Below, one piece after another: positions 9,683-34,698 of a DNA stretch of 64,000 nt (the first letter of the stretch is position 1; every line of letters begins with the position of its first letter). The stretch is from Pasteurella multocida subsp. multocida OH4807 (lineage in GTDB: Bacteria; Pseudomonadota; Gammaproteobacteria; Enterobacterales; Pasteurellaceae): the NCBI GenBank assembly GCA_000973525.1, contig CP004391.1:186001-250000 (forward strand), written 5' to 3'. The position numbers and the translations under genes are program-made. The notes beneath the pieces are model-generated. The model did not search any database, was not told the origin of the DNA, and worked only from the letters and a program-made list of their open reading frames with translations.

Positions 9683-9686
9683 TTAT

Positions 9687-10139: not shown

Positions 10140-10152
10140 TAGGAATTTTTAT

Positions 10153-10875: not shown

Positions 10876-10884
10876 GAAAACCGA

Positions 10885-10906
10885 CCGCACTTTTGTGCGG
10901 TTTTTT
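10885..10906 (+). terminator. Terminator after the antirepressor
   Basis: CCGCAC-TTTT-GTGCGG stem-loop with a T6 tail, containing the uptake-signal core. Confidence 0.7.
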
Positions 10907-10922
10907 ATTTATAGGAGGATTT

Positions 10923-11174
10923 ATGGAAATTAATATTTATGATGAGTTCCTTAGCCCTTTAGAAATTTCGCATATTACAGGTTATTCACAACCTAAAAGA
11001 CAAATACAAAGACTCAATCAACTTGGGATAGCATTTATTCCACCTAATGGAAACACAAAGCACCCTATTGTTAGACGTGACTATTCAAACAAGAAAGCAC
11101 GCAAATCGAGTGTTGCTAGCGAACAAAAAGCAAGAGTAGTATGGAGATCTAATGTATTAAATCAAGGAGGTTGA
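10923..11174 (+). CDS. DUF4224 (excisionase-like) protein
   Basis: An 83-residue protein. The N-terminal motif FLSPLEISHITGYSQPKRQI with QLGIAFIPPNGNTKHPIVRR is the DUF4224 pattern of small proteins encoded directly before phage integrases; an excisionase or integrase-control role is likely but not proven for the family. It starts at the ATG after AGGAGGAT and ends 2 bp before the integrase start codon. Confidence 0.75.
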   Translation: MEINIYDEFLSPLEISHITGYSQPKRQIQRLNQLGIAFIPPNGNTKHPIVRRDYSNKKARKSSVASEQKARVVWRSNVLNQGG

Positions 11175-17442: not shown

Positions 17443-19797
17443 TTGATGATGAAGCTTTCCCGTAAAACTGGCATTTCTGCTGTGATTCTTACCGCACTTT
17501 TTTGTGCTCTTTGCATTTTGGTGACTCGATTACTCCCTTATCCCTCCTTAAAAGATCATTTTCCTTACTCCACTGCAGTTTATGATGAACAGCACAATCT
17601 TTTGCGTTTAACAACAGCAAAAGATGAAAAATATCGCCTATGGACTCCTATTGAAGAGATTTCCCCAAAACTAATTGATGCCGTTTTATTTCAGGAAGAT
17701 GAATGGTTTTATTGGCACTTAGGAATCAATCCTTATGGCTTAATACGGGGAGCATGGCAAACCTATATCTTAAAAAACTCACCACAAGGTGGTTCAACGA
17801 TCACTATGCAGCTCGCTCGAGTGCTCTGGCATATTGACAGTAGAACATTATCTGGAAAAATTGAGCAAATTTTACGCGCCATTCAGTTGGAAATACGTTA
17901 TTCAAAAAAAGAGATCTTAGAAGCATACTTTAACTTTGCTCCTTATGGACGTAACGTCGAAGGGGCAGGAACTGCTAGCCTTATCTATTTCAATAAACAC
18001 AATACGCAAATTAACTTAGCTGAAGCCATGACATTGGCTATTTTACCTAAAAACCCTAACGGCTATATTCGTCAAAATAATCACCAATTAAATTCTTCCT
18101 TATTTAATACTCGCAATCGCCTTTATCAACGTTGGCTTCTGACCCATCCTGATGACGTAAAATGGCAAACTGATTTTCAACTTAACTATGCGCTACGCCC
18201 TTTAGAAAAACTGCCTTTTTTTGCGCCGCACTTTGTGGATCAGCTATTACAGCAATACCCGACTAAAAACACGCTTATCAGCACATTAAACAGTAAGCAA
18301 CAACGCTTAATTGAACGTATTACCCAACGTTACTTATCACAACAATATCAATTAGGGATTCATAATGCGTCGGTTTTACTTGTGGACAATAATACGATGG
18401 AAATCAAGGCATTAGTCGGGTCAGGCAATTATTTCAATTCTTCACTTTCTGGACAAATTAATGGCACATTGACCAAACGTTCCTATGGCTCAACCCTAAA
18501 ACCGTTTATCTATGCATTAGCTTTTGACCAAGGACTTGCGCATAGCCGAACAATCTTAAAAGATTTACCTACAACATTTGGTGAATATCAACCAGAAAAT
18601 TATGAAGGTAACTTTTTAGGTCCTGTGAGTGTCACTCAAGCTTTATTACAAAGCCGTAATATTCCAGCGATTGAAGTGGCAAGCAAACTTTCTCCTGATT
18701 TATATGACTGGTTAAAACACGCCGATATCACTTTCCCTCAACCTAAATCGCATTACGGACTTTCTTTAGTATTAGGAGGCGCAGAACTAAATGTTCAACA
18801 ACTGGCAAGTTTGTATGCCATGCTTGCTAACCAAGGCAATTGGTCGCCTCTTAAAATGTTGAAAAATGCCACATTACCCGCACCTAAATCACTGCTCAGT
18901 AAAGAAAGTGCGGTCATGATTCACGATATTTTACGGCAAAATAGTCGACCAGATAGACAAAATAAAGCAATTCTCAGCCCTTTACCACTTTACTGGAAAA
19001 CAGGTACGTCAAATGGTTTACGTGATGCATGGACAGCTGGTTATTTTGGTCATTACACATTAATTGTATGGCTTGGTAACTTTAATAATAAAAGCAATCC
19101 GCATTTAATTGGACGTAACCTCGCTGCCCCACTCTTTCTTCAGCTTGCAGATAGTCTAATAGCAAGTGAACCCAACATGCGTGACATTGTCACTGATAAT
19201 GCCAATCTCAAAGAAGTTTTAGTTTGTCAAGCTGATGGTAACTTACCGAATCAATATTGCCCACAACAAGTTAAAACATGGTTTATTCCAGGGACTTCAC
19301 CTATTATGGTGAGCCAACTGCACCAAGCGTTTACTGTCTTAAAAAATACCGATATGCTAGCTTGTCAACCTTATTCCCATGAAAAAACTGAACAAAAAAT
19401 ATATGAAATGTGGTCGAGTGACTTTCAACAACTGTTTGCCCAAGCGGGAATTATGAAAAAATCTCCAATTGTCAACCCTGCCTGCCCTTATGAACAACAA
19501 AATCAAGCACTACAATATTTACATGAAAACAATCCAATCATTCGCTCACCACTTGCCAATCGAGATTACTACATCAATCCACAAGTTGAAAAAGATAGCA
19601 TAACCTTCTCTGCGACTGTTGCTGCCAATGTCAATACATTATTTTGGTTTGTTAATAATACGTTTATTGGCGAAACAAAACCCAATCGGCCTTTGCTTTG
19701 GCATCCTAAAACTGCAGGTAATTACTACGTTTCAGTGATCGATGATCAAGGAAGAGAATCTTCAATGCCTGTTAGAGTTAAACTCAAAACGTTTTAA
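17443..19797 (+). CDS. pbpC: Penicillin-binding protein 1C (bifunctional transglycosylase/transpeptidase)
   Basis: A 784-residue inner-membrane peptidoglycan synthase. After an N-terminal anchor (AVILTALFCALCILVTRLL) comes a GT51 glycosyltransferase domain with catalytic Glu in FQEDEWFYWHLGINP and GGSTITMQLAR. The transpeptidase domain has SYGSTLKP (SxxK), QSRN (SxN) and KTGTSNGLRDAW (KTG). The C-terminal 90 residues are the BiPBP_C beta-domain. In Escherichia coli pbpC follows yfhM; here yfhM is about 27 kb away at 47284. No strong ribosome-binding site is seen before the ATG at 17443; the next ATGs are at 17446 and 17449. Confidence 0.94.
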   Translation: MMMKLSRKTGISAVILTALFCALCILVTRLLPYPSLKDHFPYSTAVYDEQHNLLRLTTAKDEKYRLWTPIEEISPKLIDAVLFQEDEWFYWHLGINPYGLIRGAWQTYILKNSPQGGSTITMQLARVLWHIDSRTLSGKIEQILRAIQLEIRYSKKEILEAYFNFAPYGRNVEGAGTASLIYFNKHNTQINLAEAMTLAILPKNPNGYIRQNNHQLNSSLFNTRNRLYQRWLLTHPDDVKWQTDFQLNYALRPLEKLPFFAPHFVDQLLQQYPTKNTLISTLNSKQQRLIERITQRYLSQQYQLGIHNASVLLVDNNTMEIKALVGSGNYFNSSLSGQINGTLTKRSYGSTLKPFIYALAFDQGLAHSRTILKDLPTTFGEYQPENYEGNFLGPVSVTQALLQSRNIPAIEVASKLSPDLYDWLKHADITFPQPKSHYGLSLVLGGAELNVQQLASLYAMLANQGNWSPLKMLKNATLPAPKSLLSKESAVMIHDILRQNSRPDRQNKAILSPLPLYWKTGTSNGLRDAWTAGYFGHYTLIVWLGNFNNKSNPHLIGRNLAAPLFLQLADSLIASEPNMRDIVTDNANLKEVLVCQADGNLPNQYCPQQVKTWFIPGTSPIMVSQLHQAFTVLKNTDMLACQPYSHEKTEQKIYEMWSSDFQQLFAQAGIMKKSPIVNPACPYEQQNQALQYLHENNPIIRSPLANRDYYINPQVEKDSITFSATVAANVNTLFWFVNNTFIGETKPNRPLLWHPKTAGNYYVSVIDDQGRESSMPVRVKLKTF

Positions 19798-19856: not shown

Positions 19857-21485
19857 TTATTCCTTTTTTAACTTTTGCTGCAATGTTTTAATTTTTTGTA
19901 ATAAATAAGAATTTTCAGATTGTTTTATTAATAAGCTTTCGTCGAGCTTCAATGCCTGTTGGTAATAATAATGTGCTTGTGCCTCATTCTTCTGTAAGCG
20001 AGCAAGATCACCTAACTCCTCATAACTATGGGATAAATCAGCTTGTATTGTCGGATTTTCTGGCGAATTTAAATACAAGGTATAGAGAATCATGAATCCA
20101 GATTGATAATGATAACTTGCATCTAAAAACTCACTTTTAGCCACTTCAATTGCACCTAATTTATAATATAAGATGCCTAAAAAACGCTGAACTTGTTGAT
20201 TTGTTGGACTATCTTCTGCAAGCTGATTAAAAATTTTAAACGCTTGTCGATAATGTTCGGCAGCTTGTTCAAATTTCTTCTGCTGGAAAACAATGTTACC
20301 TAGTTTAGAATAGGCAACACCTAAGTTACGCTTATTTTTACGGTGATTCGGATACTTAGTATCAAGCTTACGAAAAATTAAAAGCGCTTCATGTTGGTAC
20401 ATTAAGGCTTTATCTAATTGTTCTTGTTTTTGATAAATTTTACTGAGTTTTCCATAAGACAATGCCAAATCATGTTGAATTTGTAAATTATCGGGATCTT
20501 GTGTTATCTGTTTTTTATCAATTTCTAACATTTTTTTATAATAAAATAACGCCTCTTTTTGATTATTTTCAGCAAATTTAACATTACCAAGGTTCTTGTA
20601 AACTATCCCAAGATCTTGCAAAGCTCTCTGGTTATTTGGATATTTATCAACCAAATGTTCTACAACGGCGAGTTCTTGTTGATAATAAGAAAATGCCTGA
20701 ATATATTGATGCTGAGTTTCCATCAGGTTACCTAAATTATCATATGAAAGTCCTAACTCTCTTTGAACATAGTAATTATTAGGCTGATACTCATAAAGTG
20801 CTTTATCAATTTTCAACGCATTATTATAGTAAGCCAGAGCTTGTTTAGGTTGATGATTAAGATAACTGACATTACCTAATTTTTTATAGACAACACTTAG
20901 TCCTCGTTGTACATCAAAATTCTTTGGATTGTCATTCAATAACCTTTGTCTTATTTTAAAGGCAACTTGATACTTTTCTTCAGCACTCTTAAAATCTTGT
21001 TGAATTTCAGCGAGATAGCCTAAATTCTCATAGGCCGTACTTAAATCTTGCAAAGCCTCCGTATTATTTGGTGCTTTACACATTAAATGTTGAAATTCTT
21101 CAAATGCACGTTGGTAATAGAAGTTTGCTTTATCAACATTCCCAATTTCTCTAGCATGATTACCTTGATTCGTATAAGCAATTGCAATTTGTCTTAATTC
21201 CTTTGATGACGCATTTTTTTCTAAGTGCAACCTTAACTTTTCAATTTGTTCATAGATCACCGTTTGTTTCGTTGTCGGAACATATTGATCCAATACATCG
21301 CGCACATCAAAGTTAAGAAAACGAATTTCTGTTTCGATTTCTTTTAATAAAGCTTGAGATTTTTCGAGTTCCATTTGATATTTTAATGTCTGTTGTACTG
21401 CTTCTTGCTTCTTTTCAAAAGCAAACAAACCTACCCCAATAGACACAGTTAACAATCCAAAAGAAAATAAAAGGCTTGTTTTTAC
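19857..21485 (-). pseudogene. C-terminal fragment of a TIR-STAND-TPR protein: transmembrane segment plus TPR array
   Basis: This frame is the 3' part of the gene whose 5' part lies at 29669-31729; a Mu-like prophage separates them. It begins in frame right after the duplicated target GCGAG with VKTSLLFSFGLLTVSIGVGL, a transmembrane helix. A coiled coil follows (about residues 30-75), then about eight repeats of about 51 residues, each with a pattern like P-N-x(3)-Q-R-x-L-x(3)-Y-x(2)-L-G-N, as in tetratricopeptide arrays. Without its 5' half it could only be expressed from an internal start such as TTG at 21455 (532 residues). TPR arrays in STAND proteins usually act as the sensor or scaffold end. 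Confidence 0.85.
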
Positions 21486-21489
21486 TCGC
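21485..21489. repeat. Target-site duplication, right copy (Mu-like prophage)
   Basis: CTCGC here matches CTCGC at 29668-29672. Both lie directly outside the phage termini, and one copy restores the interrupted reading frame. Confidence 0.8.
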
Positions 21490-21574
21490 TATTGCACGCC
21501 ACAAAAATTGCGAAAATAAACCACCAGAATTGCGAAAAACAAAATATGTTTAAATTTCGCTTTTTTGGTGGTTC
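21490..21574. promoter_or_regulatory. Right-end MuA-type binding sites
   Basis: Two same-orientation repeats with core AATTGCGAAAA start at about 21506 and 21528, each preceded by a CCAC(C)A-type word. A third, inverted copy with GGTGGTTC lies at 21555-21574. The spacing resembles the clustered R1/R2/R3 sites of Mu. Binding is inferred. Confidence 0.6.
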
Positions 21575-21609
21575 ATATTAACAATTTAAATAGCATTTAA
21601 ACAGCGTTA

Positions 21610-22095
21610 CTACATTTTATTTCCCCCCCCCTTAGTTCGTAATATGACGGCCAGTTGATTTGGGTTAAACCGCCAACCTTCTGTACTATTAAAAATAACG
21701 TTGTAACACCACTCTGAACAGAAGAATTTACTTTTCTTCTCACAAAAACCCAATACTAAGCCAAGTACTCCTCGCCAGTCATATTTAGCACCTTTGGTTT
21801 TCTCAAAATATGCTTTCACTTGTTCTTCTGTGATGCTATCAAGCTGAATTAGATCCCATTTACCATCTTTCACATTAATTCCTTTACAGCGTACTCCTCC
21901 ATCTCTCGGCGAGCTTGTATAGCACTCATATACATCACGATAATCATAACGCTCCCAACATTCTTGTTTGTGAACAACAAGTTCACAGTGAGAATAGATG
22001 CCCTTCGTGAAAAATCGGATAAGATTATCTTGAAAGCGTTCTATTTTTGACGTAGCGTTGCCTTTATATAAAGCTAAATAGATTTTAGCCACCAT
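21610..22095 (-). CDS. Permuted papain-like amidase (YiiX/NlpC-P60-like) phage protein
   Basis: A 161-residue protein with the permuted papain-like order: His first (IYSHCELVVH, about residues 34-43), Cys later (KFFCSEWCYNVI, about residues 123-134). This is typical of YiiX/YaeF-type cysteine hydrolases. Such genes lie near tail fibre genes of Haemophilus Mu-like phages; the substrate is unknown. It overlaps the preceding tail-assembly gene by 11 bp. The last codons contain a run of nine G (21623-21631), so slippage would change the C-terminus. Confidence 0.65.
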   Translation of the reverse strand: MVAKIYLALYKGNATSKIERFQDNLIRFFTKGIYSHCELVVHKQECWERYDYRDVYECYTSSPRDGGVRCKGINVKDGKWDLIQLDSITEEQVKAYFEKTKGAKYDWRGVLGLVLGFCEKKSKFFCSEWCYNVIFNSTEGWRFNPNQLAVILRTKGGGNKM

Positions 22096-22693
22096 AAACC
22101 TCAGTCCAGCCGCTCGAATAATCGTAATCCAATGGGTTTTCGGCTTTCATCATTTCTGCTTTATGATGTAGTGCATTCGCATGATTTTGTTGCTGTGCGT
22201 GCAAAAGAGCCTTCCAAACTAAAATCAGATTTGCTTTGTTAAGCTTGATTTGCGTGTTATCAGCACAAGTCCAGTCGATTTCAATCTCACCAAGTAGATC
22301 AAAAGTTGATTTAACACTATTTAAACTGCGTTCTGCCCGTGCATCAGAATCAAACCATTTGTTAAGCTCTGGCACATAAACACCACCGTTGATTTTTTCA
22401 TCACGTAGTGCGTTAATCTTTTCACGCATTTGTTCTTGCTGAAGTTGTTTAATTTCTGTTTGTTTCTCTGATGAAATAGTCCATTTTTGACCATCACCAT
22501 CCCATTCGTGGTGCTCAGTCGGTTTTTCTTCTACGCAAACGGGATATCCATTCATATTAGCCATGATGATTTCACCCTGACTTTGCTTATTTAATAATTC
22601 ATAATAGTATGATTCATCTATCTCAATCGCATCAGAGGGGATCTGATGATGAATACCTTCGATATAAAACCCATCTTTGTATAAAACTCTCAT
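22085..22693 (-). CDS. Tail fibre assembly-type protein with DUF4376-like domain
   Basis: A 202-residue protein next to the tail fibre gene. It starts MRVLYKDGFYIEGIHHQIPS and has a C-terminal DUF4376-like region (EKINALRDEKINGGVYVPEL, then FDSDARAERSLNSV) used in tail fibre accessory proteins. It likely helps to fold or attach the fibre. Only 9 bp separate it from the fibre gene. Confidence 0.7.
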   Translation of the reverse strand: MRVLYKDGFYIEGIHHQIPSDAIEIDESYYYELLNKQSQGEIIMANMNGYPVCVEEKPTEHHEWDGDGQKWTISSEKQTEIKQLQQEQMREKINALRDEKINGGVYVPELNKWFDSDARAERSLNSVKSTFDLLGEIEIDWTCADNTQIKLNKANLILVWKALLHAQQQNHANALHHKAEMMKAENPLDYDYSSGWTEVYGG

Positions 22694-22702
22694 TCTTAAC
22701 TC

Positions 22703-23647
22703 CTATTCAGGTAAACAAATTGAATGCCAAAAGAACCCTCCACTCTTATCAGTTCCAGTGTAAGAGCATTGCTTCATATAATAAAATCGCCCTTTCTCAT
22801 ATCTTGTTATCTGCAGCCACCAGTCAAATTCAATAGAAACAGAAGAAACGATAGGCATCGCTACAACACTTAAAATTTTAGCCGATATAGGCATATTGAC
22901 TTGATATTCACGTCCCTCACTAGAGCCACCACTGCTAACTTTACCCCATTGTAAAATCAATCCATTGGGTAATTTACACCAACCATTTTCATTAAAGCTC
23001 TGTGTAAAACCTTGATTTATATAAGCTAAAACCCCCTGCTCAAAATCACTAATCTGACTATAAGTATGCGTATGACTTGCATTCGCTTTCCCTGCAATTT
23101 GATTAATGATAGTGTTTCTAAAATTCGCATCTTGCCCCAGTGCGTTGGCTAACTCTTGTAAAGTATCTAGTGCTGCTGGAGCCGAACCCACCAACGCAGC
23201 AATAGCCGCTTTCACAAACGCCGTTGTCGCAATTTGTGTATTATTTGTTGATTGATTTGCGGTTGGTGCCGTTGGCGTCCCCGTTAATGCTGGTGAAATT
23301 AAAGGTGCTTTTGCGCCTAGTGCATTAGATAACCCAGAAATATCACTCATCGCATGATTATGTTGAGTATTTGCTTTTCCGCTTATCGCAGTATTCACCT
23401 TGTTTTGCACAACCTGCTGAATAGCCAATGTCAACTGATTCAAATTAGCCTTGTCAGGATTAATTCCCCCCGCCTTTAACACCCCAAGTAACTCAGCTTG
23501 CACAATATTAAACCAATCTGCACCTGGGTAGCTTGGTGCAACGCCATTACCACCTTCAGTAAACCAACGTGGCTCATTGTGATTAAACTGTTTTGACTTT
23601 ACTTCTGGCATTGTTTGAACGCCAGAATCATTATCTAATGCGTACAT
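22703..23647 (-). CDS. Phage tail fibre protein
   Basis: A 314-residue fibre. The N-terminus resembles Mu gpS-like starts (FNHNEPRWFTEGGNGVAPSY). The middle has collagen/fibre-like repeats (ISGLSNALGAKAPLISPALT, GTPTAPTANQSTNNTQIATT) and AATAFVKAA-type helices. The C-terminal half (NENGWCKLPNGLILQWGKVS) is the gp53-like receptor-binding tip. It would recognise the host surface. Shorter than Mu gpS (about 500 residues), but the two ends look intact. Confidence 0.85.
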   Translation of the reverse strand: MYALDNDSGVQTMPEVKSKQFNHNEPRWFTEGGNGVAPSYPGADWFNIVQAELLGVLKAGGINPDKANLNQLTLAIQQVVQNKVNTAISGKANTQHNHAMSDISGLSNALGAKAPLISPALTGTPTAPTANQSTNNTQIATTAFVKAAIAALVGSAPAALDTLQELANALGQDANFRNTIINQIAGKANASHTHTYSQISDFEQGVLAYINQGFTQSFNENGWCKLPNGLILQWGKVSSGGSSEGREYQVNMPISAKILSVVAMPIVSSVSIEFDWWLQITRYEKGRFYYMKQCSYTGTDKSGGFFWHSICLPE

Positions 23648-23648
23648 A

Positions 23649-23895
23649 TCATTCCTCTTGGTAGATAAAAATCATTTCTAAATGTGAGTAACAAAAACGC
23701 TTTAAAAAGCATTCAACTTTTGAGCGTTCAAACATCACCAACTCTTGTGTTACATCATCTAAACAGCTTGCACGTCGCATAGCTTTCGATGTGGTATAAA
23801 TAAATACACGCCAGGCGTTTTCCTGTGGGTATAAAGGATAAATACAGTCACGCTCGCAATGATGGGGATAAGTGCACAGATTTAATATTTGCAAG
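23649..23895 (-). pseudogene. C-terminal fragment of Mu gp48/YmfQ-like (DUF2313) tail protein
   Basis: The frame ending at 23649 has the closing motif of YmfQ/gp48 proteins: [20 protein letters not shown] followed by [13 protein letters not shown]. The N-terminal half is absent and the sequence runs directly into the gpN-like frame upstream. It is left over after an internal deletion, and the exact junction near 23890 is uncertain. Confidence 0.55.
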
Positions 23896-25017
23896 CTGTT
23901 CACCACGTGTGCGTAAATCGCTAATCACTGCAAGTCTGAATTGTTCTAATGCTTGATAACTCCGCCAGTTTTCCGCATCTGCATTGTCTAAAATTGCTTG
24001 TTCAAGTTGTGAATCAATTTCACCAATTAATGCTTTAATGTCTGCCTTTGACTCAATTGTTTGCACTTCACTACTCAATGAATCCGTTAATGCTTCGGTC
24101 ACTGATTTTGCATATTCAACCGCAAGTGTTGAAATGATTAAACGTGCACAGCTAAATTGTGCTTTTGTCATTAAGGCTTGGGCAATTTCTTGTTGATGTA
24201 ATCCAGTTGCATTACGTTTTAAAATATCCGTTGCATTGATGTTGTTGCGTTTTGCATTGACGATTGCATCAAACATCGCTTTCGGCATTTCTGTTTTGGA
24301 TTTTGTTGCTTCAGAAATCGTGTTATGAATGACGTTTGTTGTAATCGCACGCTGATTTAATCCTTGTTTCGGGCTAATTCCTTTATATTTTTTGAATTGC
24401 ACAAGCCCTTGTAATTCTTTCCCGAGTAAACTAGGCGCACGGATTAAATTCATCATACGATTTTTCATTGATTCTGCTTTTGTTTTAATATCCCCAACGT
24501 CTGTCACAACTGAATTAATAGATTCAAATGTATTCTCAATAAACTCAACCATAAAATCGACAAGTTGAGTGAATGGGTTATCTACTAATAAATCAACAAA
24601 CTCATTAATCTCTGCGATTTGTTCAGCGAACTCATCTGATAGTGCATTAATAGCATTGGCATATTCGGTTAATGCTGAAAAACGTGTGTTTTTAGCAAGT
24701 TTTGGTGCATTTTCTTGAATATCATCCGCAAAAGTAATATCAAAACGAGTAACGCGTTGGTGTGGCGACGGATTATTTGTAAGGATTTCGGATAACAACC
24801 GTTGTTCAGCTTCTTTAATTGACTCAATCGGCATCGGGGTTTGAGAACCAAATACCAAGCGTGCATCAGCTTTGAATTGCTCAATTTGAGCTTGCGTAAC
24901 ATTCGTAAGTAGGTTAGAGCCTTTGAGTAAACTAAAACCAGCACGTCGATAACCATCTTTATCAGTTTTGTTGAACACAACAACTTGATACAGCGTTTGA
25001 TTTTGAATTTCAGACAT
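23848..25017 (-). pseudogene. Chimera: HI1506-like N-terminus fused to Mu gpN (DNA circularisation) C-terminal part
   Basis: A 389-residue frame. About the first 55 residues (YQVVVFNKTDKDGYRRAGFS, LLKGSNLLTNVTQAQIEQFK) resemble the small Mu-like head-region protein HI1506. From about residue 58 on the sequence looks like the gpN DNA-circularisation/tail protein: NLIRAPSLLGKELQGLVQFK in the middle and [20 protein letters not shown] near the end. Mu places many genes between these two, so a deletion fused them in frame. Frame is lost again at the C-terminus where it meets the gp48 fragment. Confidence 0.55.
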
Positions 25018-25089
25018 CGCATTTTTTCTCCGTTTAAATCTGTTTTAACTGTGATTTAAAGTGCGGTTAAACACACCGCACTTTCTAAA

Positions 25090-26013
25090 TTACAGATAGT
25101 CAGCAACGATAAGCTCTAAACGACCTTTAAACTCGTTATCGACCGAAGCTCCGTCTTCAACACGGAATTCACGCTCTAACAACTTAACTGCTGCTTCTTC
25201 TAACTGCGGAGGTACGACTAAATGCGTTGGTTTAATACCTAAGCGACGACCACCATCACCTTTCACCGCACGCATAGCTTTAATTGCTTTCCAAAGGTTT
25301 TCCGCAGTTAACTTACATTTCCCTGCGTGGGCCATTTGCCAGAAGCCATAACCCACGTTAGCACGGGCATCTACACCATAGGTATAAACGTCTTTAGTAA
25401 AGACTTTTTCCGCACTGTCATCTGTAATTGATGCAGGTGTCGCTGGCTTGCGCTCTTGGAAAATAATTGGTTTAAGCGAGCGAGAGCAGTCAAGTAAATA
25501 CCAAGAATCATCTTCAGTGGTTGAAGTGCTATCATCAGTGATATTGCTCACAGACTGCGGACTTGTACCATCCACATTTGCACCAACAGGGTGGTCTGTA
25601 TCAAAGAAATATTGCTTGTCATAACACGCAGTTTTGAAACCTGCTTTTAATGCACCAAACACCAATTCATCAGGTAGTTCACCTGCCGAACGTCCAAGCT
25701 CTTCAATAAGAGGGCTATAAACACCAACATTGTCATCTTCAATATCGGTGCGTTTGATTTCTACCGCATTAGCAAAACTTTTATTCTCAATAGAGTAGCC
25801 ATGTGACTGGATTGCAGTAATCGCACGATCACCCACCCATTCTTTAAGCCCTGGCATTTGACCGAGCCACGCATAGGTATTGCTTGCCGTAGTCGATTTA
25901 ACGACTGTAGCAATCTTGCTGTATTGACTTGGCGCTTTTGCTAAACCGTCTTTAAAGTTTTTACCAAAGCCCACAAAAAGCGCTTTGACGAGTTCTGGGG
26001 TTACATTTGCCAT
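25090..26013 (-). CDS. Mu gpT-like major head subunit
   Basis: A 307-residue capsid protein, about the usual length. It begins MANVTPELVKALFVGFGKNF and has YSKIATVVKSTTASNTYAWL, GQMPGLKEWVGDRA and HLVVPPQLEEAAVKLLEREF, all characteristic of the Mu gpT family. It looks complete and directly follows the protease/scaffold piece (1-bp overlap), preserving the Mu I-T order. Confidence 0.9.
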   Translation of the reverse strand: MANVTPELVKALFVGFGKNFKDGLAKAPSQYSKIATVVKSTTASNTYAWLGQMPGLKEWVGDRAITAIQSHGYSIENKSFANAVEIKRTDIEDDNVGVYSPLIEELGRSAGELPDELVFGALKAGFKTACYDKQYFFDTDHPVGANVDGTSPQSVSNITDDSTSTTEDDSWYLLDCSRSLKPIIFQERKPATPASITDDSAEKVFTKDVYTYGVDARANVGYGFWQMAHAGKCKLTAENLWKAIKAMRAVKGDGGRRLGIKPTHLVVPPQLEEAAVKLLEREFRVEDGASVDNEFKGRLELIVADYL

Positions 26014-26747
26014 TATTTAGTCTCCAATTCTTTTGCGTAATCTGCTTCAGAAATACCAAGCAATTTCGCAGCCTCTTTATCTGCAGCAGATAACACTGCT
26101 ACGCCTGATTCTTGTTTTTCAACATTTGTGGTTTGGGTTTGTTGTGCTGAAAGCACCGCAATTTGTGGGCGTTGCGACAGCATTGCGGAAAGTGCGGCAA
26201 CACCTTGCTGTTTGCCAAAGCCTTTCAAGTAATCCACTTCCGCTTCTAGCGCACGCCCTTCGTTACGTGCTTTTTCGATAACTTGGTCCACTTCCGTTTC
26301 ATTGGTTTTTGCAGAAAGCACAGCTAACTGTTGCACTGTTGCATCGTAAGTGGCTTTCGGCACATACTTGCTTAAATCAACATCTGTACTTTTCGCACTT
26401 AAGGTTGCCACCTGCTCATCAGCAGTTTTATCTGATTGCAATTTTTCGAGTGTAGATAACGCAGATTGCAGTTGTTCATCAGAAACTTCTGAATTTTCTG
26501 CGACATCTACACCGAGTTTTGCTAACAGTTTTCGCAAAATTTCAGGCATTTGATAGTCCTCTTGTTGTTGAATAGATGCCGAAAGCACCGCTAATCGTTG
26601 CATTCCCGTTACACCTGGGTCATTCGTTAGTGCTAAGTACACTGAATAAGCAAGGATAATTGCCATAAGTAGCGCACCAAAAAATTGAATAAAAGCAGTG
26701 GTTGAAAGGCGACCGTTGTCGTTAGTGATAAGTTCTTTTAATTTCAT
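26013..26747 (-). pseudogene. Chimera: DUF2644 membrane protein N-terminus fused to Mu gpI/Z protease-scaffold C-terminus
   Basis: A 244-residue frame. Residues 1-43 (MKLKELITNDNGRLSTTAFI, then FFGALLMAIILAYSVYLALT) are the start of a DUF2644-type membrane protein found after the endolysin in Haemophilus Mu-like phages. The rest carries repeated LSA-containing segments (QRLAVLSA, QLAVLSAKTN, AALSAMLSQRPQIAVLSAQ), typical of the scaffold portion of the Mu gpI protease; the peptidase domain is missing. This is a second deletion fusion. Without the protease, head maturation would fail. Confidence 0.7.
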
Positions 26748-26750
26748 TAT

Positions 26751-26888
26751 TCATCCTAAAAAATGTTCATAATTAATCACTTGCTCACTATCGAGCCATT
26801 CCCAAACATCAAAGCAAGGGCAGTCTTTAAGCCACTCATTAGGACTTATTGAACCATCACCATTAAGATCAGGTGATAAATCTCGGTG
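26751..26888 (-). pseudogene. C-terminal fragment of a T7-lysozyme-type amidase (endolysin)
   Basis: Out of frame with the transposase ORF, this stretch reads YGHRDLSPDLNGDGSISPNE then WLKDCPCFDVWEW, the C-terminal signature of T7 lysozyme-like N-acetylmuramoyl-L-alanine amidases, with the zinc-site His and Cys. It ends just before the DUF2644-type start, the natural gene order. The first part is lost at the junction with the transposase near 26888. Confidence 0.7.
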
Positions 26889-27934
26889 GCCATAGATTTA
26901 GGTACTCCGCCAGTCATCCATTTATTTGCTGCTGCACGGGTGTTATCAATAGTCACGTGGCGTGGAATACCGTATTTGTAAATCACATCCATTAGTGAGT
27001 AGCGGATGCTGTCTGTGTTTTCACTGACATCACAGCGATAACCTAGAATTTTGCGAGTGCGAATATCTTGCCAGAACCACGTTTTCGGGCGGACAATTTC
27101 GCCGTTTTTCCATTTCACAAATACGTTATGTAGATAGCCGTCACCGTTAATCCATTCCATTGCTTGAATATCAGCAACAGAACGCTGTAATGCAGGCACT
27201 AGTTTGGTAAGTGCGTTTTCGCCATAACGTTTTAATACAATGACTTCATAAGGCACTTCGTTTTCCACTTTGCGTTGAACGGTTTGACGGCTTGGAATAG
27301 TCCAACCCATTTCTTTAGCAGCACGAGTTAAACGTTCATAACAAGCAGCAATTGTTGGGCGTTCAAGGCGTAAATAATCCGCAAGGAAGTAATCCCACGC
27401 TTCAATATCAAAATCCGCTTTTTCTTTTGCTGTTTTGCCCGTTCGTTTAAGCAACACCGCAAGCCAGTCGGATTGTTCAAAATCACGCACTTTGTAGTAC
27501 CAATTTTTTAACGAGCCCACAGAGATGTCTTGTGCTTTCGCCACAAGCTCCAACGCCTCCATCAGTGGTGTTTTTGAATCAACAAAATTTTGCACCGCAA
27601 CAACAGCGAGATATTTTTTCTTGGCTTTGCTTTTTTGAACGTTGTTTGCTTTGTCGAACGGTTGCCAAATTGCAGCAGATAAATAACGTTCTGCGGTGGT
27701 TTGTTCTTGAGTAGGTAGCTCTTCAGATGAAAGTGATTTGGCAAAACGGAATTTAATCTCGTCTTGAACGTTTTTTGGTAAAGATGAAAGTGCATATTCC
27801 AAGCCACCACCTTTAACCCCTTTCTTAGGTTGTGAAACCCAGTTTTGCTGCTTTGCTAATCGATTAATATTGCTTGGGTGAATGGATAATCCACCAATTC
27901 CAGCAAGCTCTTTCGCACTAAACCATAGTTTCAT
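26846..27934 (-). pseudogene. Truncated Mu transposase A
   Basis: Mu A cuts and joins the phage ends. This frame has the N-terminal winged-helix domain (WFSAKELAGIGGLSIHPSNI) and part of the DDE core. The first catalytic Asp is in WINGDGYLHNVFVKW and the second in HVTIDNTRAAANKW. It breaks off right after WMTGGVPK, before the catalytic Glu, and runs 16 codons into endolysin DNA in the wrong frame. About half of the usual length (roughly 660-690 residues) is missing, so the element cannot transpose by itself. I prefer the ATG at 27934 (AAGGA spacing); 27943 is possible. Confidence 0.88.
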
Positions 27935-27945
27935 TTGAACCATCC

Positions 27946-28176
27946 TTAGTCTTGATAACGACTTGGCCAGATTTCACGTGGATGTTTACCAAGTGCCTCT
28001 GCAATAATCTGTTCACCGCGTGGATAGCGTTTATCAAAGGCATTTCGTAGAGTAGTTTTTGCCAATCCGTTTTTAATCCCTAATTGAGCCAATGAAATCC
28101 CTTTCTTAATCAATTCAGCGCGAATATCTGCACGATGCATATCATTATTTCTTTTCTTTTCTGTCATTTTGTGCAA
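27946..28176 (-). CDS. ner: Ner-like DNA-binding protein (Mu early regulator)
   Basis: A 76-residue helix-turn-helix protein of the Ner/Nlp/SfsB type: RADIRAELIKKGISLAQLGI, LAKTTLRNAFDKRYPRGEQI, IAEALGKHPREIWPSRY. Ner lowers early transcription and repressor synthesis in Mu. It is divergent from repressor c across a 200-bp region with palindromic operators, as in Mu. It looks intact. Confidence 0.88.
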   Translation of the reverse strand: MHKMTEKKRNNDMHRADIRAELIKKGISLAQLGIKNGLAKTTLRNAFDKRYPRGEQIIAEALGKHPREIWPSRYQD

Positions 28177-28216
28177 TCCTTAAAGATTAGTTAATCGACT
28201 ACGCTAAGATGTACTT

Positions 28217-28363
28217 AATCATCTATGATTTGAAATATATTATGAAATCCTTTTTAAATCAATAGATGATTTGATAAAAATTTACAGAATCTTTGATTTT
28301 ATTTTGTAACTTATTGATTTATTTAAACTTAATCATATAAATTTTTTTAAATCATTTTTGATT
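28217..28363. promoter_or_regulatory. Operator region between ner and repressor c
   Basis: AT-rich stretch with three palindromic AATCA-N4/5-TGATT sites: AATCATCTATGATT (28217-28230), AATCAATAGATGATT (28257-28271) and AATCATTTTTGATT (28350-28363). They sit between the divergent ner and c genes and are probably repressor or Ner binding sites. In Mu the operator also enhances transposition. Confidence 0.6.
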
Positions 28364-28377
28364 AAGAAGGGAAATTT

Positions 28378-29055
28378 ATGAAATCATCAAAAGAGTGGTA
28401 TAGTGCCAAAGAACTTGAAGGATTAGATGGTTTACCTTCACACGCTACCAACATTACAAGAAAGGCTAAAAATCAAGGTTGGATATCTAGAGATGCTAAA
28501 GGAGTTAAAGGCGGTGGTTTGGAATACCATATTTCAAGTCTGCCCCCAGAAACACTAGCTGCGTTAGGTATTAACCATATAAATTCAACAACCAATAAAC
28601 AAGCAATCTTTGAAAACACAGCTGAATACACGACAGATGATGGGTTTGAGTTCATTGAAGATTGCAGAAACGTCTTAATATCAGCTGGATATGGCGCAGA
28701 AAATACAGGCTACATACCAAGAAGAATGACTAAGATAGAGCGCTCTTGGTTAATCCAGCGCGGTTTAAAAGCAGAAAATTGTGCTCTTTTCTTGATTAGT
28801 GGTGAAAGTATGAAACCAACACTTAATGATGGTGAAGAGGTTGTTGTTGATAGATCTAAGACGATACTTAAAGAAGGCAAGATCTTTATATTCAATCATA
28901 GTGGATATATTTTAGCTAAAAAAGTTCAAGTAACATATGATGGCATTGCATTAATTAGCGATAACCCAACATATACACCAATTGTGCTGTCTAGAGATGA
29001 AGCAAACAAACTTTTAGTTATCGGACAAGTTGTTCGCAGTTATCGTGACTTTTAG
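28378..29055 (+). CDS. Mu-type repressor c with LexA-like S24 domain
   Basis: A 225-residue repressor. The N-terminal domain (WYSAKELEGLDGLPSHATNI, KGVKGGGLEYHISSLP) is the same winged-helix type as the MuA N-terminus in this remnant, so both probably bind the same operator. The C-terminal S24 domain has the catalytic Ser in LISGESMKPTL and the Lys in YILAKKVQV, so it could self-cleave on DNA damage; classical Mu c lacks such a domain. An AAGAAGGGAAATTT site precedes the ATG. Intact, hence the cell may still be immune to related phages. Confidence 0.88.
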   Translation: MKSSKEWYSAKELEGLDGLPSHATNITRKAKNQGWISRDAKGVKGGGLEYHISSLPPETLAALGINHINSTTNKQAIFENTAEYTTDDGFEFIEDCRNVLISAGYGAENTGYIPRRMTKIERSWLIQRGLKAENCALFLISGESMKPTLNDGEEVVVDRSKTILKEGKIFIFNHSGYILAKKVQVTYDGIALISDNPTYTPIVLSRDEANKLLVIGQVVRSYRDF

Positions 29056-29095
29056 AATTTAAACAGGCTTTAAACACATTTAAATGAACTGCCCA

Positions 29096-29155
29096 ATTTC
29101 TTAATTTTGGCGGTTCATTTTCTGCTTTTACCTTCATTTTTTCGCAATTCACCAC
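29096..29155. promoter_or_regulatory. Left-end MuA-type sites L2/L3 (displaced)
   Basis: On the minus strand, GAACCGCCAAAATTAAGAAA (29097-29116) is nearly the same as GAATCACCAGAATTAAGAAA at the left terminus (29642-29661). A second copy with core AATTGCGAAAA lies at 29137-29155. Subtracting the 372-bp gp27 insertion puts them about 140 and 180 bp from the terminus, close to the Mu L2 and L3 positions. Confidence 0.55.
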
Positions 29156-29172
29156 TTTCTGATTTCAAGCCA

Positions 29173-29197
29173 ATAAAAAAAGGGACTTGCTAGTCCC
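29173..29197 (-). terminator. Terminator of the gp27-like gene
   Basis: GGGACTAGCAAGTCCC hairpin (minus strand) followed by T7. It isolates the gp27-like gene from repressor c, which is convergent. Confidence 0.75.
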
Positions 29198-29204
29198 ATC
29201 ATTT

Positions 29205-29216
29205 TTATTGTTCCGA
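29205..29216. repeat. 12-bp direct repeat flanking gp27-like gene (copy 1)
   Basis: TTATTGTTCCGA, identical to 29577-29588; the two copies bracket the gp27-like gene, 372 bp apart. Confidence 0.7.
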
Positions 29217-29534
29217 TATTTCCCGAATACGGTTTAGAATTTCTTGCTTACGATATTCCAACCGCCCAAGCTCTTTATATAGTAAATCGAGATTGCTATC
29301 GCAAGCGGTTAGACTTGCATAAAGCTTAAATGAGCCTGACACGCCATTATGTCCATTAATTGCTTTTAATTCCTTGATATAACGGTGCATAGCCGTCTTT
29401 GATGTTTTATAGCCTTGTTCTTTAAACCAATCAGCCAACCGTTTCGCATCACCATAATTTGCTTCTATGATACGCTGATTCAATTCATAGATCGCCTCTT
29501 CAGGCACATCAGATAAAAATGAAACTCGTCCCAT
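29205..29534 (-). CDS. Mu gp27-like small terminase (DUF3486)
   Basis: A 109-residue protein starting at the ATG at 29534 after AAGGAG. MGRVSFLSDVPEEAIYELNQ and DWFKEQGYKTSKTAMHRYIK, followed by a C-terminal helical tail (LGRLEYRKQEILNRIREISE), match the DUF3486/Mu gp27 family, the small terminase subunit that picks phage DNA for packaging. It is in the wrong place: Mu relatives keep it in the late region before the large terminase, whereas here it stands alone between the left end and repressor c, with its own ribosome-binding site and terminator, between two 12-bp direct repeats. Confidence 0.75.
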   Translation of the reverse strand: MGRVSFLSDVPEEAIYELNQRIIEANYGDAKRLADWFKEQGYKTSKTAMHRYIKELKAINGHNGVSGSFKLYASLTACDSNLDLLYKELGRLEYRKQEILNRIREISEQ

Positions 29535-29576
29535 TTTATTCTCCTTATGCTGTTTCATTAATTCCATTTTATCCCG

Positions 29577-29588
29577 TTATTGTTCCGA
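29577..29588. repeat. 12-bp direct repeat flanking gp27-like gene (copy 2)
   Basis: TTATTGTTCCGA, second copy, 45 bp upstream of the gp27-like start on the minus strand. Confidence 0.7.
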
Positions 29589-29659
29589 ATACAAGACCCG
29601 TTTAATTTCGTAAATTACAACAAAATTCCTATTTATTTTTATTTCTTAATTCTGGTGAT

Positions 29660-31729
29660 TCATAGCACTCGCTTTAAGGCAATAGAACGTTCTTCTACCA
29701 GTTTTTTCGCTTTTTTCAACTCATTAATTTCTTGTAATAATTCTTGTTCTCGACAACTATTCAAGTACTCTCGCTGTATTGGTGTAATATAGGCTTTGAA
29801 TTTTCCTTCTTCTAAACGTGCCATGTCTTGTAAACGACAACCACGTAACCGTAACCACTCTGCCTGTTTTTGTGTACGTAGCCAAACGGTGGTTTCTGCT
29901 TGTAACATTTCAAGCAAAAATAAATCGGCAATATCTTCTTTTAACCAATCTGATAACAATCGCCATTGACGTAAAATGCTCTCATGAGCAAATTCAACCG
30001 TAATACCTTGTTCATTATGATGCCGTCCCTTCTTATCTAAAAACTGTACATTATAGTCTTTTGTTAATAAGCGACTTTCCACTAAACTATCAATAAGTGG
30101 ACGAACATCCTCAGGAAAATCAACATAATGAGCAACTTTACGGTATGGCTGGTGTGTTTTAACATCAATGCTAGCTAAATATGGAATAAAGGCACGACGT
30201 AATAACGCTAGGCGTCCTTTATTTGATTTAGGCAAGCGAGGATCTTGTTGTGCATTAGTTAATGCCTCGTCAATCGCAATCGAAACAGCACCTTGTAATC
30301 CACCTAAACCTGAATGTTGCTGTGTATTTTCATCTTGGAAAATTAAATATTCTTTTAATTCTAATTTTCCATTATTACCATAATCTAAATATAAACGTTC
30401 TAAAGTAAAGGCAAGCAATGGTAACGCATCCTTTCCACCATCTTGTTCCAAGTCTTTTAATAAGCGATCAGTTAATTGAGGATCAATCCAAAGTGGCTTT
30501 TGCGTTTTTTCTAATAACTTTGCAGGTCCCTCTATAATTTGTTGATAAGCGCCTCTCGCAATAGGCGGTAAAGAGAAAGGAAACTGGTTAATACCTTCAA
30601 GCTTTTCTGCAATTTGTAATGAAGAATAGGCATCAGTACGAATAGTCGATAACACCATGACATCAAGTTCATGACAAGTGATAAGCTCAGCTAACAATTC
30701 TAAAAACAAGTTAGTTTCTGCATTATAAGAAGTGAAAAGCTCCTCAGCTTGGTCAATTGTGATCACAAGTGTAGGCAGATGTGACGCTTGTTGAAACTCT
30801 AGTCCTGTTCGAGTTTGTTTCACCGCAGAAACAAGTAACGCTTTTAGCTCTTTATACCCCTCTTTTTTCATTACCATTGCTGAAATAGCTTGTCTTGTAG
30901 ATTGCATTTTTAAGCTATTACAAAAAAGCATCAATGCTTCAATCAAGCCTTTTTCACCGTTTAATACGGATTGATTCGGGCGTATCAAAGGCAAAACGAT
31001 AAAATCTTGTTGTAAACGGGCCAAACGAGGCAATATCCCTGCACGTAAGAAAGAAGACTTACCTGAACCAGATGCGCCTTGTATAGCAATGAAGCGAATA
31101 TTGGTGGTATCACGTAGACGCTGTAATTCCGACATTAACGCTTTAATTGCTCCATCTCGTCCAAATAACAGACCCGCATCTTCAAATTCAAGCGGTTTCA
31201 GTCCTTTATAAGGACTCGGTGGATCACTATATTGTGATAAAGGTGGCCATTGGAAAAAATCAGAATGGAGACCTGCATAAGTGAGACCTCGCTTTAAACT
31301 ATTTAATCCTATTTGACTAAACGATACCATACAGGATTGTCCTGAAGGTAATAATATGGGAATACTGACTTTAGGATGACCGATTTCTAAATTACCAATA
31401 TTCCATTTATCTAAAATAGCATAAGGGATACAGTATTGAGTTGGTGACTTGATAATTAAAGGAAAAATCGGCTTGTTTAGTACCTCTGCCATTTGGTATT
31501 CAAATAAACAATGTGATGAACTTAGCCAACTATCGGAAATAAGTAAGATCATGCCTTCACATTCATTGATAGAATTATTTAGTTTTTTTCGCCACTTTTC
31601 TCCAACTTGAATACCATTATTGGGATCTAGATCAAGAAACAGCGACCAGCCCAATTCACTCAACCAATTATATAAAGCAATCGCTTCAGCATTATCTACA
31701 CTCGAATGGCTAATAAATAATTGAGTCAT
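29660..31729 (-). pseudogene. TIR-STAND NTPase, N-terminal 687 codons of a gene split by a Mu-like prophage
   Basis: The N-terminus is a TIR domain (MTQLFISHSSVDNAEAIALY) with the likely NADase glutamate E77 in SSSHCLFEYQMAEV. Next is a STAND-type NTPase: Walker A GASGSGKSSFLRA at about 218-230, Walker B LVITIDQAEELF, then winged-helix-like segments and a coiled coil. The frame runs into phage DNA after ALKRV and stops at a TGA given by the phage end (29660). Joined to 19857-21485 it would be 1229 residues with a membrane anchor and TPR array. TIR-STAND proteins are immune effectors that deplete NAD or make nucleotide signals. The truncated form keeps both enzymatic domains and might still act. 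Confidence 0.85.
29668..29672. repeat. Target-site duplication, left copy (Mu-like prophage)
   Basis: CTCGC, matching 21485-21489. It lies in the codons AAG CGA GTG of the interrupted TIR-STAND gene. Confidence 0.8.
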
Positions 31730-31819
31730 GATTAAATTTCCTTATATAAATATATCCTATTAAGTCACATAAATAATCACTACATATCGGAACTGTAGTA
31801 AAACACGAAACAAGACTAT

Positions 31820-33655
31820 TTATTCAGTTAACTTCACTAAGTGATAATGTTGACGAACCATTGGTTGTGCTAAAATAAAGGGAATTAAGCGGATCATGCT
31901 TTCATCTTTGTGTTTTTCTTGTTCTGGAAGCCTATCAAATGGTGTGAGACTGCTATTTAACTGGCGTTTTTCATCATTTTTTTCGGCATATAACCACCCA
32001 TCTGTCAAACGTTCTTGATAAAAACGTTGATGTTCCAATTTCAATAACTGCACTAAATATTGCTGAATTGCACAATTCAGTTCAGCTATCAACAATTCAT
32101 CGAAGCGACTCTCTTTCTGATAAACTAGCTCAAAACCCAATTCTCTTAATTTAATAAAGAGATGATCCGCTGCACAGCGGCTAGAATGACGAAATCCCTC
32201 AGCTAAAGACTCACGCCAATGCCTATTTGCGGATTCAATATTTTCCAAAAAAGCATGTGCAAATTTAGGGCCAAACTCCACCGACTTAATTGAAGGAAAC
32301 TGTCGACTATGGATTGTTTGATAAGCCGTATGAATACTTAGTGACAAGACATCATGAGAGCGTTCATAAGGGTAATTTATGTTACTTTGAATAATCGAAA
32401 AATAATAAATATCCTGATTCTCTATACTATTTTTCTGAATTGCATCATTCAATTTTTCAATATCATTGAGTGCTTTTCCCGCAAAACAAGCAGTCAAACT
32501 TGATTTTACCTGAAGTGCAGTCAACCCTTGACTGACTTTATACAGCGTTTCAAAAACAACATAATCATTTTCATCCACAATATAAATGTGATTAAAATGC
32601 CCATACTGCATCATCACATCAGCCAATAATGCGGGGGAAATATGTGTTTCTCGACAAGAATAATATCTAACATATACAGGTAAAACCCCTCCCCCATAAA
32701 TATGCTTATTTTGATTTTCTTTTAATAAAACAGGATTTTCTTGTAAAAATTGCTCATATTGTTCGGCAGATTGACTAAAAATACTTAAATGAATCTCACT
32801 TATATTCAAATACACGCAATTACGCATAATGTTTAATACTAATTGAGGTGTTAAACGCCCATAACCCACAATACCAATATGCAATACACCATTTGATAGT
32901 AATGAACTATAAGGAAGGGGTGGACGTAATTGCAAAAGTAACCGTGCGGCACTATGAATTGCATTCCCCCAAATAATTTCACCATGTTGAGAGCGATATT
33001 GTTGGAAAAGTCGCTCTTGACTGGCAATACGTAACATCAATTGGTTGGTCATATTAATTAAGAGCCGCGGTTTTCTATCGCGTCGACTGAAAAATGGGAT
33101 AATCGATTTTGCTAATGCAATATTCATTTCGTCGCGTTGAGCAACAAGATAAATCACATCTGCTGATTTTAAATTTAAACTTTTTAAATCACTAAAAGCG
33201 ATCTCAGGAAAATGTAATAATCGATAATTTTGATTTGGTAATTCATCGTAGTAAGGAATGCCCTCTAAAGAAATATCAACAAATAACTTTTTTCCAGGAT
33301 AATTTATAAAAATACTTGAAATAACGGCTGATCGTGTTGTACCAATCATAACCATACGAGCAGGGCATAATTTAAGCGTTAAAAAAGTGAGTTTTTGCCC
33401 AATAATTTGTAGAAATAATTTAATTACAGCAACAATAGTAAATAATGGTAAAGCAAAACGTGCTAATTCCACTTGCCAATTTGGAACATGAATATCCCCA
33501 TTAATGACAATCAGCTTAATGCTGCTATATACTGCATCAGTAAAAGAAAGATGATATTCATGATACCCCCATACCCCAACACAAAAGAATATACTCAAAA
33601 GAAAGTAGAGTGCATAACCCTTATTTTGCGTTCTACGTTTTAATTGATTCATCAT
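31820..33655 (-). CDS. Two-TM channel-like protein with Rossmann (RCK/TrkA-N-like) domains and C-terminal RyR domain
   Basis: A 611-residue membrane protein. Two transmembrane helices (about 14-32 and 64-86) flank a segment, FTDAVYSSIKLIVINGDI, placed like a K+-channel pore loop but without the TVGYG filter. Cytoplasmic nucleotide-binding folds follow: one from about residue 99 (ARMVMIGTTRSAV), another at 258-275 (LHIGIVGYGRLTPQLVL). The C-terminus (about 537-598) is a RyR domain: LEHQRFYQERLTDGWLYAEK and SLTPFDRLPEQEKHKDESMI. It lies 90 bp upstream of the TIR-STAND gene, same strand. RyR domains are predicted sensors of small nucleotide-derived ligands, so the pair could be a signal-gated channel system. 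Confidence 0.75.
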   Translation of the reverse strand: MMNQLKRRTQNKGYALYFLLSIFFCVGVWGYHEYHLSFTDAVYSSIKLIVINGDIHVPNWQVELARFALPLFTIVAVIKLFLQIIGQKLTFLTLKLCPARMVMIGTTRSAVISSIFINYPGKKLFVDISLEGIPYYDELPNQNYRLLHFPEIAFSDLKSLNLKSADVIYLVAQRDEMNIALAKSIIPFFSRRDRKPRLLINMTNQLMLRIASQERLFQQYRSQHGEIIWGNAIHSAARLLLQLRPPLPYSSLLSNGVLHIGIVGYGRLTPQLVLNIMRNCVYLNISEIHLSIFSQSAEQYEQFLQENPVLLKENQNKHIYGGGVLPVYVRYYSCRETHISPALLADVMMQYGHFNHIYIVDENDYVVFETLYKVSQGLTALQVKSSLTACFAGKALNDIEKLNDAIQKNSIENQDIYYFSIIQSNINYPYERSHDVLSLSIHTAYQTIHSRQFPSIKSVEFGPKFAHAFLENIESANRHWRESLAEGFRHSSRCAADHLFIKLRELGFELVYQKESRFDELLIAELNCAIQQYLVQLLKLEHQRFYQERLTDGWLYAEKNDEKRQLNSSLTPFDRLPEQEKHKDESMIRLIPFILAQPMVRQHYHLVKLTE

Positions 33656-33852: not shown

Positions 33853-34698
33853 TTAATCTAAATGCTCGAGCGCATATTGATACAAAAAGTTCTTTTTATA
33901 ATGATAAATTTCGGCCACTATTGATGCTGCTTTTTTTAGTGGTAATTCTTGGCTAATTAATTTCAATGCTTTAATTGCCTGAGGATCAATTTCATCTGCT
34001 TGTGTTAGAACTTGTCCTTCAATAATTAATACCATCTCACCTTTTGTTCTATTAGCCTCTTGCTGTAGCCATTGATGTAAATTTGTCACCGTATCGCCAA
34101 TAATTGTTTCCCAAGTTTTTGTCATTTCTCGGGCTAACACAACATAGCGCTCCGCTCCAAAGATTTTTTCTATATCGCTTAACGTATCTAAAATGCGGTG
34201 GGTAGATTCATAAAAGATTAATGTGCGCGTTTCTTGAGCAAGATCTTGTAATTTGTCACATCTTGCTTTGCTTTTCGCAGGTAAAAAACCTTCAAAACAA
34301 AAGCGGTCTGATGCGATCCCCGAAGCACAAAGTGCCGTAATCGCTGCACAAGCGCCTGGTAAAGGAACGACCTGGATACCAGCTTGACGACATTGACGAA
34401 CGAGATGAAAACCAGGATCACTAATTAATGGTGTTCCTGCATCAGAAATGAGTGCAATCGTTGTACCTTGCTGTAATTTTTCGACTAAAAGTCGCGCTTT
34501 TTGTTGTTCGTTATGATCATGTAAGGCAAAGAAAGGTTTTTTAATGCCATAGTGGCTCAGCAACAATCCACTGCGTCGAGTGTCTTCTGCTGCTACCAAA
34601 TCAACTTGCGAGAGAATCGTTAAAGCACGCTGTGTAATATCTTGTAAATTCCCTATTGGCGTGGCGACAATATATAAAATTCCTGTTAAATTATTCAT
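33853..34698 (-). CDS. rsmI: 16S rRNA (cytidine1402-2'-O)-methyltransferase
   Basis: RsmI methylates the ribose of C1402 in the decoding centre. The 281-residue tetrapyrrole-methylase-fold protein starts with [20 protein letters not shown], has [17 protein letters not shown], and [19 protein letters not shown], the SAM-site signature. It is divergent from lpoA, the usual arrangement in gamma-proteobacteria. Confidence 0.96.

Follow-up and report, generated by a model that had tools for sequence, protein, structure and literature searches.

The window analysed here, a whole stretch of 64 kb (positions 186001-250000 of the single 2,079,121-base chromosome of Pasteurella multocida subsp. multocida OH4807), carries on its minus strand two neighbouring genes, one for a channel-like protein that ends in a tandem RyR module and the other for a TIR-nSTAND1-TPR protein. 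We propose that they form a two-gene Thoeris-like immune cassette, in which a signal made by the TIR domain acts on the RyR domain of an RCK channel and thereby gates it, a reading to which we give a probability of roughly 0.6. The pairing of the two genes recurs in distant bacteria, which suggests that an immune signal opens the channel.

On the minus strand, a 611-aa open reading frame (ORF) is followed, in the 5' to 3' direction, by a 90-bp gap, a 689-aa ORF, a stretch of phage genes of about 8.2 kb and a TPR ORF of 532 aa. In window coordinates, the parts of the two genes are:

31820..33655, minus strand: gene of the RyR channel-like protein (611 aa), with a two-transmembrane (2TM) pore unit, tandem RCK-like Rossmann domains and a tandem RyR module
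33560..33625, minus strand: first transmembrane segment (TM1), residues 11-32 (AlphaFold2 (AF2) helix; hydropathy in relatives)
33509..33544, minus strand: pore-helix-like segment without a TVGYG filter, residues 38-49 (AF2, alignment, motif check)
33368..33478, minus strand: second transmembrane segment (TM2), residues 60-96 (AF2)
32966..33355, minus strand: first RCK-like Rossmann domain, residues 101-230
32396..32887, minus strand: second RCK-like Rossmann domain, residues 257-420
32135..32362, minus strand: degenerate first RyR-like repeat, residues about 432-507 (hhalign against the canonical repeat, 96.4% probability, E 1.1e-9)
31823..32074, minus strand: canonical RyR repeat, residues 528-611, carrying H542, F545, N567 and D584
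29660..31729, minus strand: TIR-nSTAND1, the 5' part of the sensor gene (689 aa; TIR E77, Walker A K224)
19857..21455, minus strand: TPR array, the 3' part of the sensor gene (532-aa ORF, whose frame runs on upstream into a transmembrane segment)

The AF2 model of the channel-like protein (pLDDT 85.1, pTM 0.80) comprises TM1, a pore helix and TM2, two Rossmann domains and a helical C-terminus, the TM1-P-TM2 plus RCK make-up of 2TM/RCK potassium channels, and it resembles the structures of GsuK, of the CASTOR/DMI1 and BK gating rings, and of human RyR3 Repeat12. The filter motif T.G[YF]G was absent from the N-terminal part of the window protein, of 21 relatives and of 37 channel ORFs from other genomes. 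The RyR domain is marginal in Pfam (PF02026 at residues 531-589, 27.8 bits for a cut-off of 27.4), and three channel relatives (P0003, P0004 and P0006) have no precomputed Pfam match; sequence matches in the PDB are firmer (RyR chimera 6uhi, 2.7e-13; bacterial RyR 3nrt, 3.5e-6). With the whole-protein model, Foldseek retrieved RyR3 9l9b (prob 1.00, E 1.2e-3, root-mean-square deviation (rmsd) 10.5 over 224 columns) and 6uhi (prob 1.00, E 1.4e-3, rmsd 8.9 over 197 columns), alignments whose span we count as evidence for the degenerate first repeat. The closest named relatives are in Pasteurella sp. P03HT (88%) and P. oralis (71%), and in the diverged relatives P0005-P0007 the RyR part is the most conserved (66-69%, for 54-55% in the TM part and 45-47% in the Rossmann part). 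No match to the channel was found by tblastn in plasmids and phages. A first-pass annotation, made from the letters and ORFs alone, had described a two-TM, pore-loop-like protein with Rossmann folds and a C-terminal RyR domain, lacking the K+ filter and separated by 90 bp from a TIR-STAND gene; Pfam, the PDB matches, the AF2 model and the motif check agree with this description, and the RyR fold, whose absence it had named as refuting, is present.

The TIR-nSTAND1 ORF scored 51.1 bits with TIR_2 and 203.9 bits with nSTAND1 (cut-off 27.1). Its E77, within SSHCLFE, and K224, within the Walker A motif GASGSGKSS, stand where the first-pass annotation had placed them, and the catalytic glutamate was aligned in 16/16 TIRs (as judged by eye, in an alignment without the TIR genes of L193, L201, L208, L213 and L225). 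In two relatives, G106 and G109, the sensor is one unbroken ORF (1262 and 1261 aa, respectively), to which both pieces in the window match (82% identity to the window in the front part, 58-62% in the tail); this single-frame read-through confirms that the TIR-STAND protein continues into a TM segment plus TPR array, the TM segment sitting between STAND and TPR in the relatives. Over four relatives, identity to the window is 50-87% in the TIR and STAND parts and 36-62% in the TPR tail.

Within Pasteurellaceae, we found the channel in 5 of 140 genomes and the TIR-STAND gene in the same five, four of which come from one genus and hence are not five independent events; neither gene was matched in the other 135. 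The two genes are adjacent in all five, in both orders and at two sites, with a reversed order and 41 bp between them in the fifth genome (G057, from another genus). In the window's genus, both genes were present in four of six genomes and neither in the remaining two. The cassette site is bordered by the following genes:

17443..19797, plus strand: flanking gene at one border, which we take to be pbpC-like
33853..34698, minus strand: flanking gene at the other border, presumably rsmI-like

These borders lie close together in G108 (about 55 bp), G110 (about 62 bp) and G107 (about 72 bp), the last of which has its pair about 150 kb from this junction; they are about 6 kb apart in both G106 and G109, and 14 kb apart in the window. 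The occurrence of empty and occupied versions of the same junction indicates that the two genes are gained and lost as a unit.

RyR genes are rare, being present in 4/394 genomes sampled from the order and 8/398 from the phylum, the window's own included. A RyR motif scan of genome contigs gave at least 80 loci, and a hidden Markov model of the channel without its RyR part matched 40 of the 80 loci listed. Thirty-seven were kept, L080 and L088 being dropped as weak matches with RyR not at the end, and L090 as having RyR and channel in separate ORFs. A TIR_2 domain was encoded within 10 kb at 13/39 merged RyR loci (36 genomes) where 0.65 would be expected from TIR density (Poisson 3e-13), a count that includes the very similar and hence not independent pairs of G854 and G864 and the weak TIR of G876 (E 9e-4). 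For channel-type loci the figure was 11/37, and two RyR loci without a channel-type ORF (L204 and L208) also had a TIR nearby. As a control, we took the TrkA_N loci of these genomes that lack RyR; among the matches listed, which were about 150 of 255 for TrkA_N and complete for TIR (129) and RyR (49), 1/96 such loci had a TIR within 10 kb (Fisher 2e-7).

Outside the family, the gene arrangements are diverse. In Acidimicrobiaceae (L209, the same as L078), a 772-aa single chain (8849-11167) bears TIR_2, TrkA_N and RyR, all three scoring over their curated cut-offs, together with a 2TM unit and a long insertion in the TIR. A TIR-WD40 gene precedes the channel gene in Cardiobacteriaceae (L226, 4-bp overlap) and in Diaphorobacter caeni (L218, 27 bp apart), while in Rhodospirillales (L224) the channel precedes a TIR-nSTAND gene. 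In Verrucomicrobia (L200) the channel, in two overlapping ORFs, is followed by a TIR-NB-ARC-TPR gene and a second RyR gene. A TIR-nSTAND1-WD40 gene lies at a distance of about 2 kb from the channel in L033 and of about 5 kb in L030, and L203 and L034 have an nSTAND1 protein without a TIR match, the start of the one in L034 being cut by the contig end. The pair was thus found elsewhere, as the first-pass annotation had proposed to check, in Pasteurellaceae as well as in other phyla and once as a fused protein.

RyR genes also occur in other settings. RyR channels stand beside proteins with GVTGH/GVIGHR motifs (SLOG-like by eye) or below-cut-off SLATT_3 in L035, L036, L038, L212, L215 and L225. 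Another common RyR architecture, about 780-900 aa long and without the channel part, occurs in L032, L050, L055, L075, L105 and others; in L032 it appears by eye to combine a RelA/SpoT-type synthetase, a SLOG-like region and RyR, and in some loci (L060, L086) this architecture adjoins TIR genes. Small RyR proteins of 129 and 313 aa lie among genes that look phage-like by eye in L031 and L037, and may be RyDEP-type prophage counter-defence proteins.

TIR domains make ADP-ribose-type signals from NAD+. Phage RyR-domain proteins (RyDEP) are reported to bind or cleave one class of such molecules, the cyclic ADP-ribose (cADPR) isomers 2'/3'cADPR, in the available portion of a 2026 preprint (PMC13232231), which also gives the ligand positions as H75, W78, H100 and D117 and which makes no mention, in that portion, of a bacterial RyR channel. 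There, six of eight phage homologues bound 2'/3'cADPR, in the nanomolar range for the two that were measured, which strengthens the proposed step from TIR product to RyR. The four positions map to H542, F545, N567 and D584 of the window protein with exact spacing (3, 25 and 17), H542 and D584 being kept. Among 62 aligned RyR rows, some of which are duplicated (L035 and L191, for instance, being the same locus), H100 is a histidine in 42 and D117 an aspartate in 49; because the motif scan imposes the H and W of the RyR motif, only these two positions provide free evidence in the loci it retrieved. A TIR-linked channel of Diaphorobacter keeps all four positions and matched RyR1 repeats at about 1e-19.

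From these data we infer the following sequence of events. The TIR-nSTAND1-TM-TPR protein would be the sensor, whose fast-changing TPR end may detect an invader, upon which the STAND NTPase would assemble and the TIR domains would make from NAD+ a signal of the ADP-ribose type, probably an isomer of cADPR. The presumed receptor is the C-terminal tandem RyR module of a 2TM tandem-RCK channel of the GsuK/MthK/BK/CASTOR kind; the signal in the RyR pocket would shift the gating ring and open a pore devoid of the classic K+ filter, and the open pore may collapse ion gradients and stop the infected cell. The first-pass annotation had likewise suggested that the TIR product gates the channel. The pairing and the domains it relied on are supported here, whereas the two biochemical steps, from TIR product to RyR binding and from binding to pore opening, as well as the trigger, the signal, the direction of gating, the ion and the anti-phage effect, are part of what we infer.

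Several observations weigh against this reading. Curated Thoeris models do not recognize the locus (25.7 bits with NCBIfam ThcB4 for a cut-off of 220, a weak and partial match with PADLOC ThsB, and no match for the channel), and we therefore term it Thoeris-like. No TIR was found within 10 kb at 26/39 RyR loci, some of whose contigs end early, and RyR-channel neighbours also include a nucleoside phosphorylase, a kinase-FGE protein and housekeeping genes. Moreover, for five close TIR-nSTAND1 relatives outside the family (on three plasmids and in G1041 and G1140), the approximately 10 kb of flanks seen contain neither a channel nor RyR. Pairing with unrelated genes had been named beforehand as a refuting outcome; TIR pairing does recur, but the loci without a near TIR and the relatives without a channel indicate that the partners are modular rather than obligate. 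Among the five cassettes of the family, one has a broken sensor and two have a frameshifted channel; one broken gene in three of five might be expected for a costly, fast-turning defence. As to the ligand, W78 and H100 are replaced by F and N in the window protein, and of eight phage RyR homologues, two showed no binding of the signals (PMC13232231, available portion).

The nature of the ligand also bears on the first two alternatives. RyR3 Repeat12 structures hold ADP or ATP, and, judging from structure titles, GsuK structures hold ADP or NAD and TrkA structures ATP analogues, so that the ligand of the RyR module could be an ordinary adenine nucleotide. The module would then sense ATP, ADP, NAD or the loss of NAD, the TIR-STAND protein killing by NAD drain and the channel answering the drained state. 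We consider this unlikely, although worth keeping in mind, as the genomic link is to RyR and not to RCK alone (13/39 versus 1/96 among the matches listed) and as most of the phage homologues bind 2'/3'cADPR itself. Alternatively, the module might be an enzyme or a sink, serving as a brake that shields the host from leaky TIR activity: phage RyDEP homologues work as glycosidase or sponge (PMC13232231, in the portion available), and the RyDEP catalytic pair is kept in the window protein as H542 and D584, so that its domain might cleave the signal. However, a sink has no need of the pore and gating ring to which the module is attached, and in the same source cleavage was seen with the DyoEdafos RyDEP but with none of eight other homologues, which leaves this explanation a slim chance.

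We give equally little credence to a direct contact, in which the STAND protein would reach the channel by means of its TM segment, without a diffusible signal, the TIR being an assembly domain. The adjacency of the genes and the position of the TM segment in the relatives' sensor would suit such an arrangement, but the TIR glutamate is kept throughout the alignment, and channels also pair with TIR-WD40 proteins that have no STAND match (L218, L226). Finally, that unrelated genes merely share defence islands is very improbable, even though some RyR channels adjoin housekeeping or other genes, because the two genes behave as a cassette (same 5/140 genomes, both gene orders, two-gene insertion at an otherwise empty site) and a TIR-channel-RyR fused protein exists.

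Among known systems, the locus stands closest to Thoeris, with an effector that looks new in kind. As in Thoeris (ThsB plus ThsA), a TIR protein with a conserved glutamate is encoded beside a separate effector gene, and one domain of the effector belongs to a family for which binding of cADPR isomers is reported; unlike in Thoeris, the sensor is fused to STAND and TPR, and the effector is an RCK channel with RyR. Thoeris effector types include SIR2-SLOG, macro-TM and caspase proteins. GsuK, MthK, BK and the CASTOR/DMI1 gating rings share TM1-pore helix-TM2 or the tandem RCK fold with the window protein, which differs by the lack of a TVGYG filter and by the added tandem RyR module. The animal ryanodine receptor shares the tandem RyR repeats of Repeat12, while its pore and overall protein differ, the ligand-binding module alone being common. 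Phage RyDEP (PF02026; PMC13232231, available portion) is similar in domain family, spacing of ligand positions and predicted ligands, but is a phage counter-defence that cleaves or soaks up the signal, whereas the RyR module described here is encoded by the host and joined to the gating ring of a channel.

Among the papers listed by our literature searches, which did not extend to the 2015 survey of nucleotide-centric conflict systems by Burroughs et al. in Nucleic Acids Research, we found no host RyR channel paired with TIR; that survey reportedly treats TIR, SLOG and SLATT and may mention RyR.

More generally, host bacterial RyR channels may be channels gated by TIR-made cyclic ADP-ribose, forming a new class of TIR-immunity effectors and the target with which phage RyDEP sponges compete, so that the ligand module of animal RyR would already have coupled cADPR-type signals to ion flux in bacteria; we regard this wider proposal as evenly balanced. 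If true, a gated ion channel would join the effectors fired by TIR-made signals, and phage RyR sponges would gain a clear host counterpart. It also bears on an old question in calcium signalling, namely whether molecules of the cADPR type have their receptor in the RyR repeat module itself, and would answer it in a form that can be tested in bacteria. In several bacteria the pairs, which are small and recurrent, are naturally intact.

In OH4807 itself, the sensor gene is split by a decayed Mu-like prophage, with these features:

21489..29666: decayed Mu-like prophage within the sensor gene, about 8.2 kb
22703-23647: tail fibre, within the prophage
23848-25017: FluMu_N, within the prophage
25090-26013: Mu-like gpT (406 bits), within the prophage
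26846-27943: truncated MuA-like transposase (DDE_2 positions 1-97 of 221), within the prophage
28378-29055: S24 repressor, within the prophage
29205-29567: Gp27-like, within the prophage
21484..21488, minus strand: CGAGT repeat at one prophage edge
29667..29671, minus strand: CGAGT repeat at the other prophage edge

Both edges share AGCGAGT, and CGAGT is in frame with the sensor gene; it is probably the 5-bp target duplication of Mu-type elements, the other two bases being chance. Mu-like gpT, a truncated MuA and the probable 5-bp duplication are all present. By megablast, phage records gave one match only, to Pasteurella phage Pmp9 (1.9 kb at 91%). The first-pass annotation had the TM-TPR end of the sensor right but understated its separation from the front half by this remnant. 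Because the TIR gene is split, the OH4807 copy of the cassette is probably inactive. The reverse situation, with a whole sensor and a frameshifted channel, is found in L027 (G107) and L028 (G057), the frameshift of G107 lying near a T run and so possibly a sequencing error, while both genes are intact in G106 and G109.

Elsewhere in the window, a phage-type integrase (11232-12206) and a helix-turn-helix/IrrE-type protein (4975-6060) are signs of another integrated element, and a bacterial alpha-2-macroglobulin of 1917 aa is encoded at 47254-53007.

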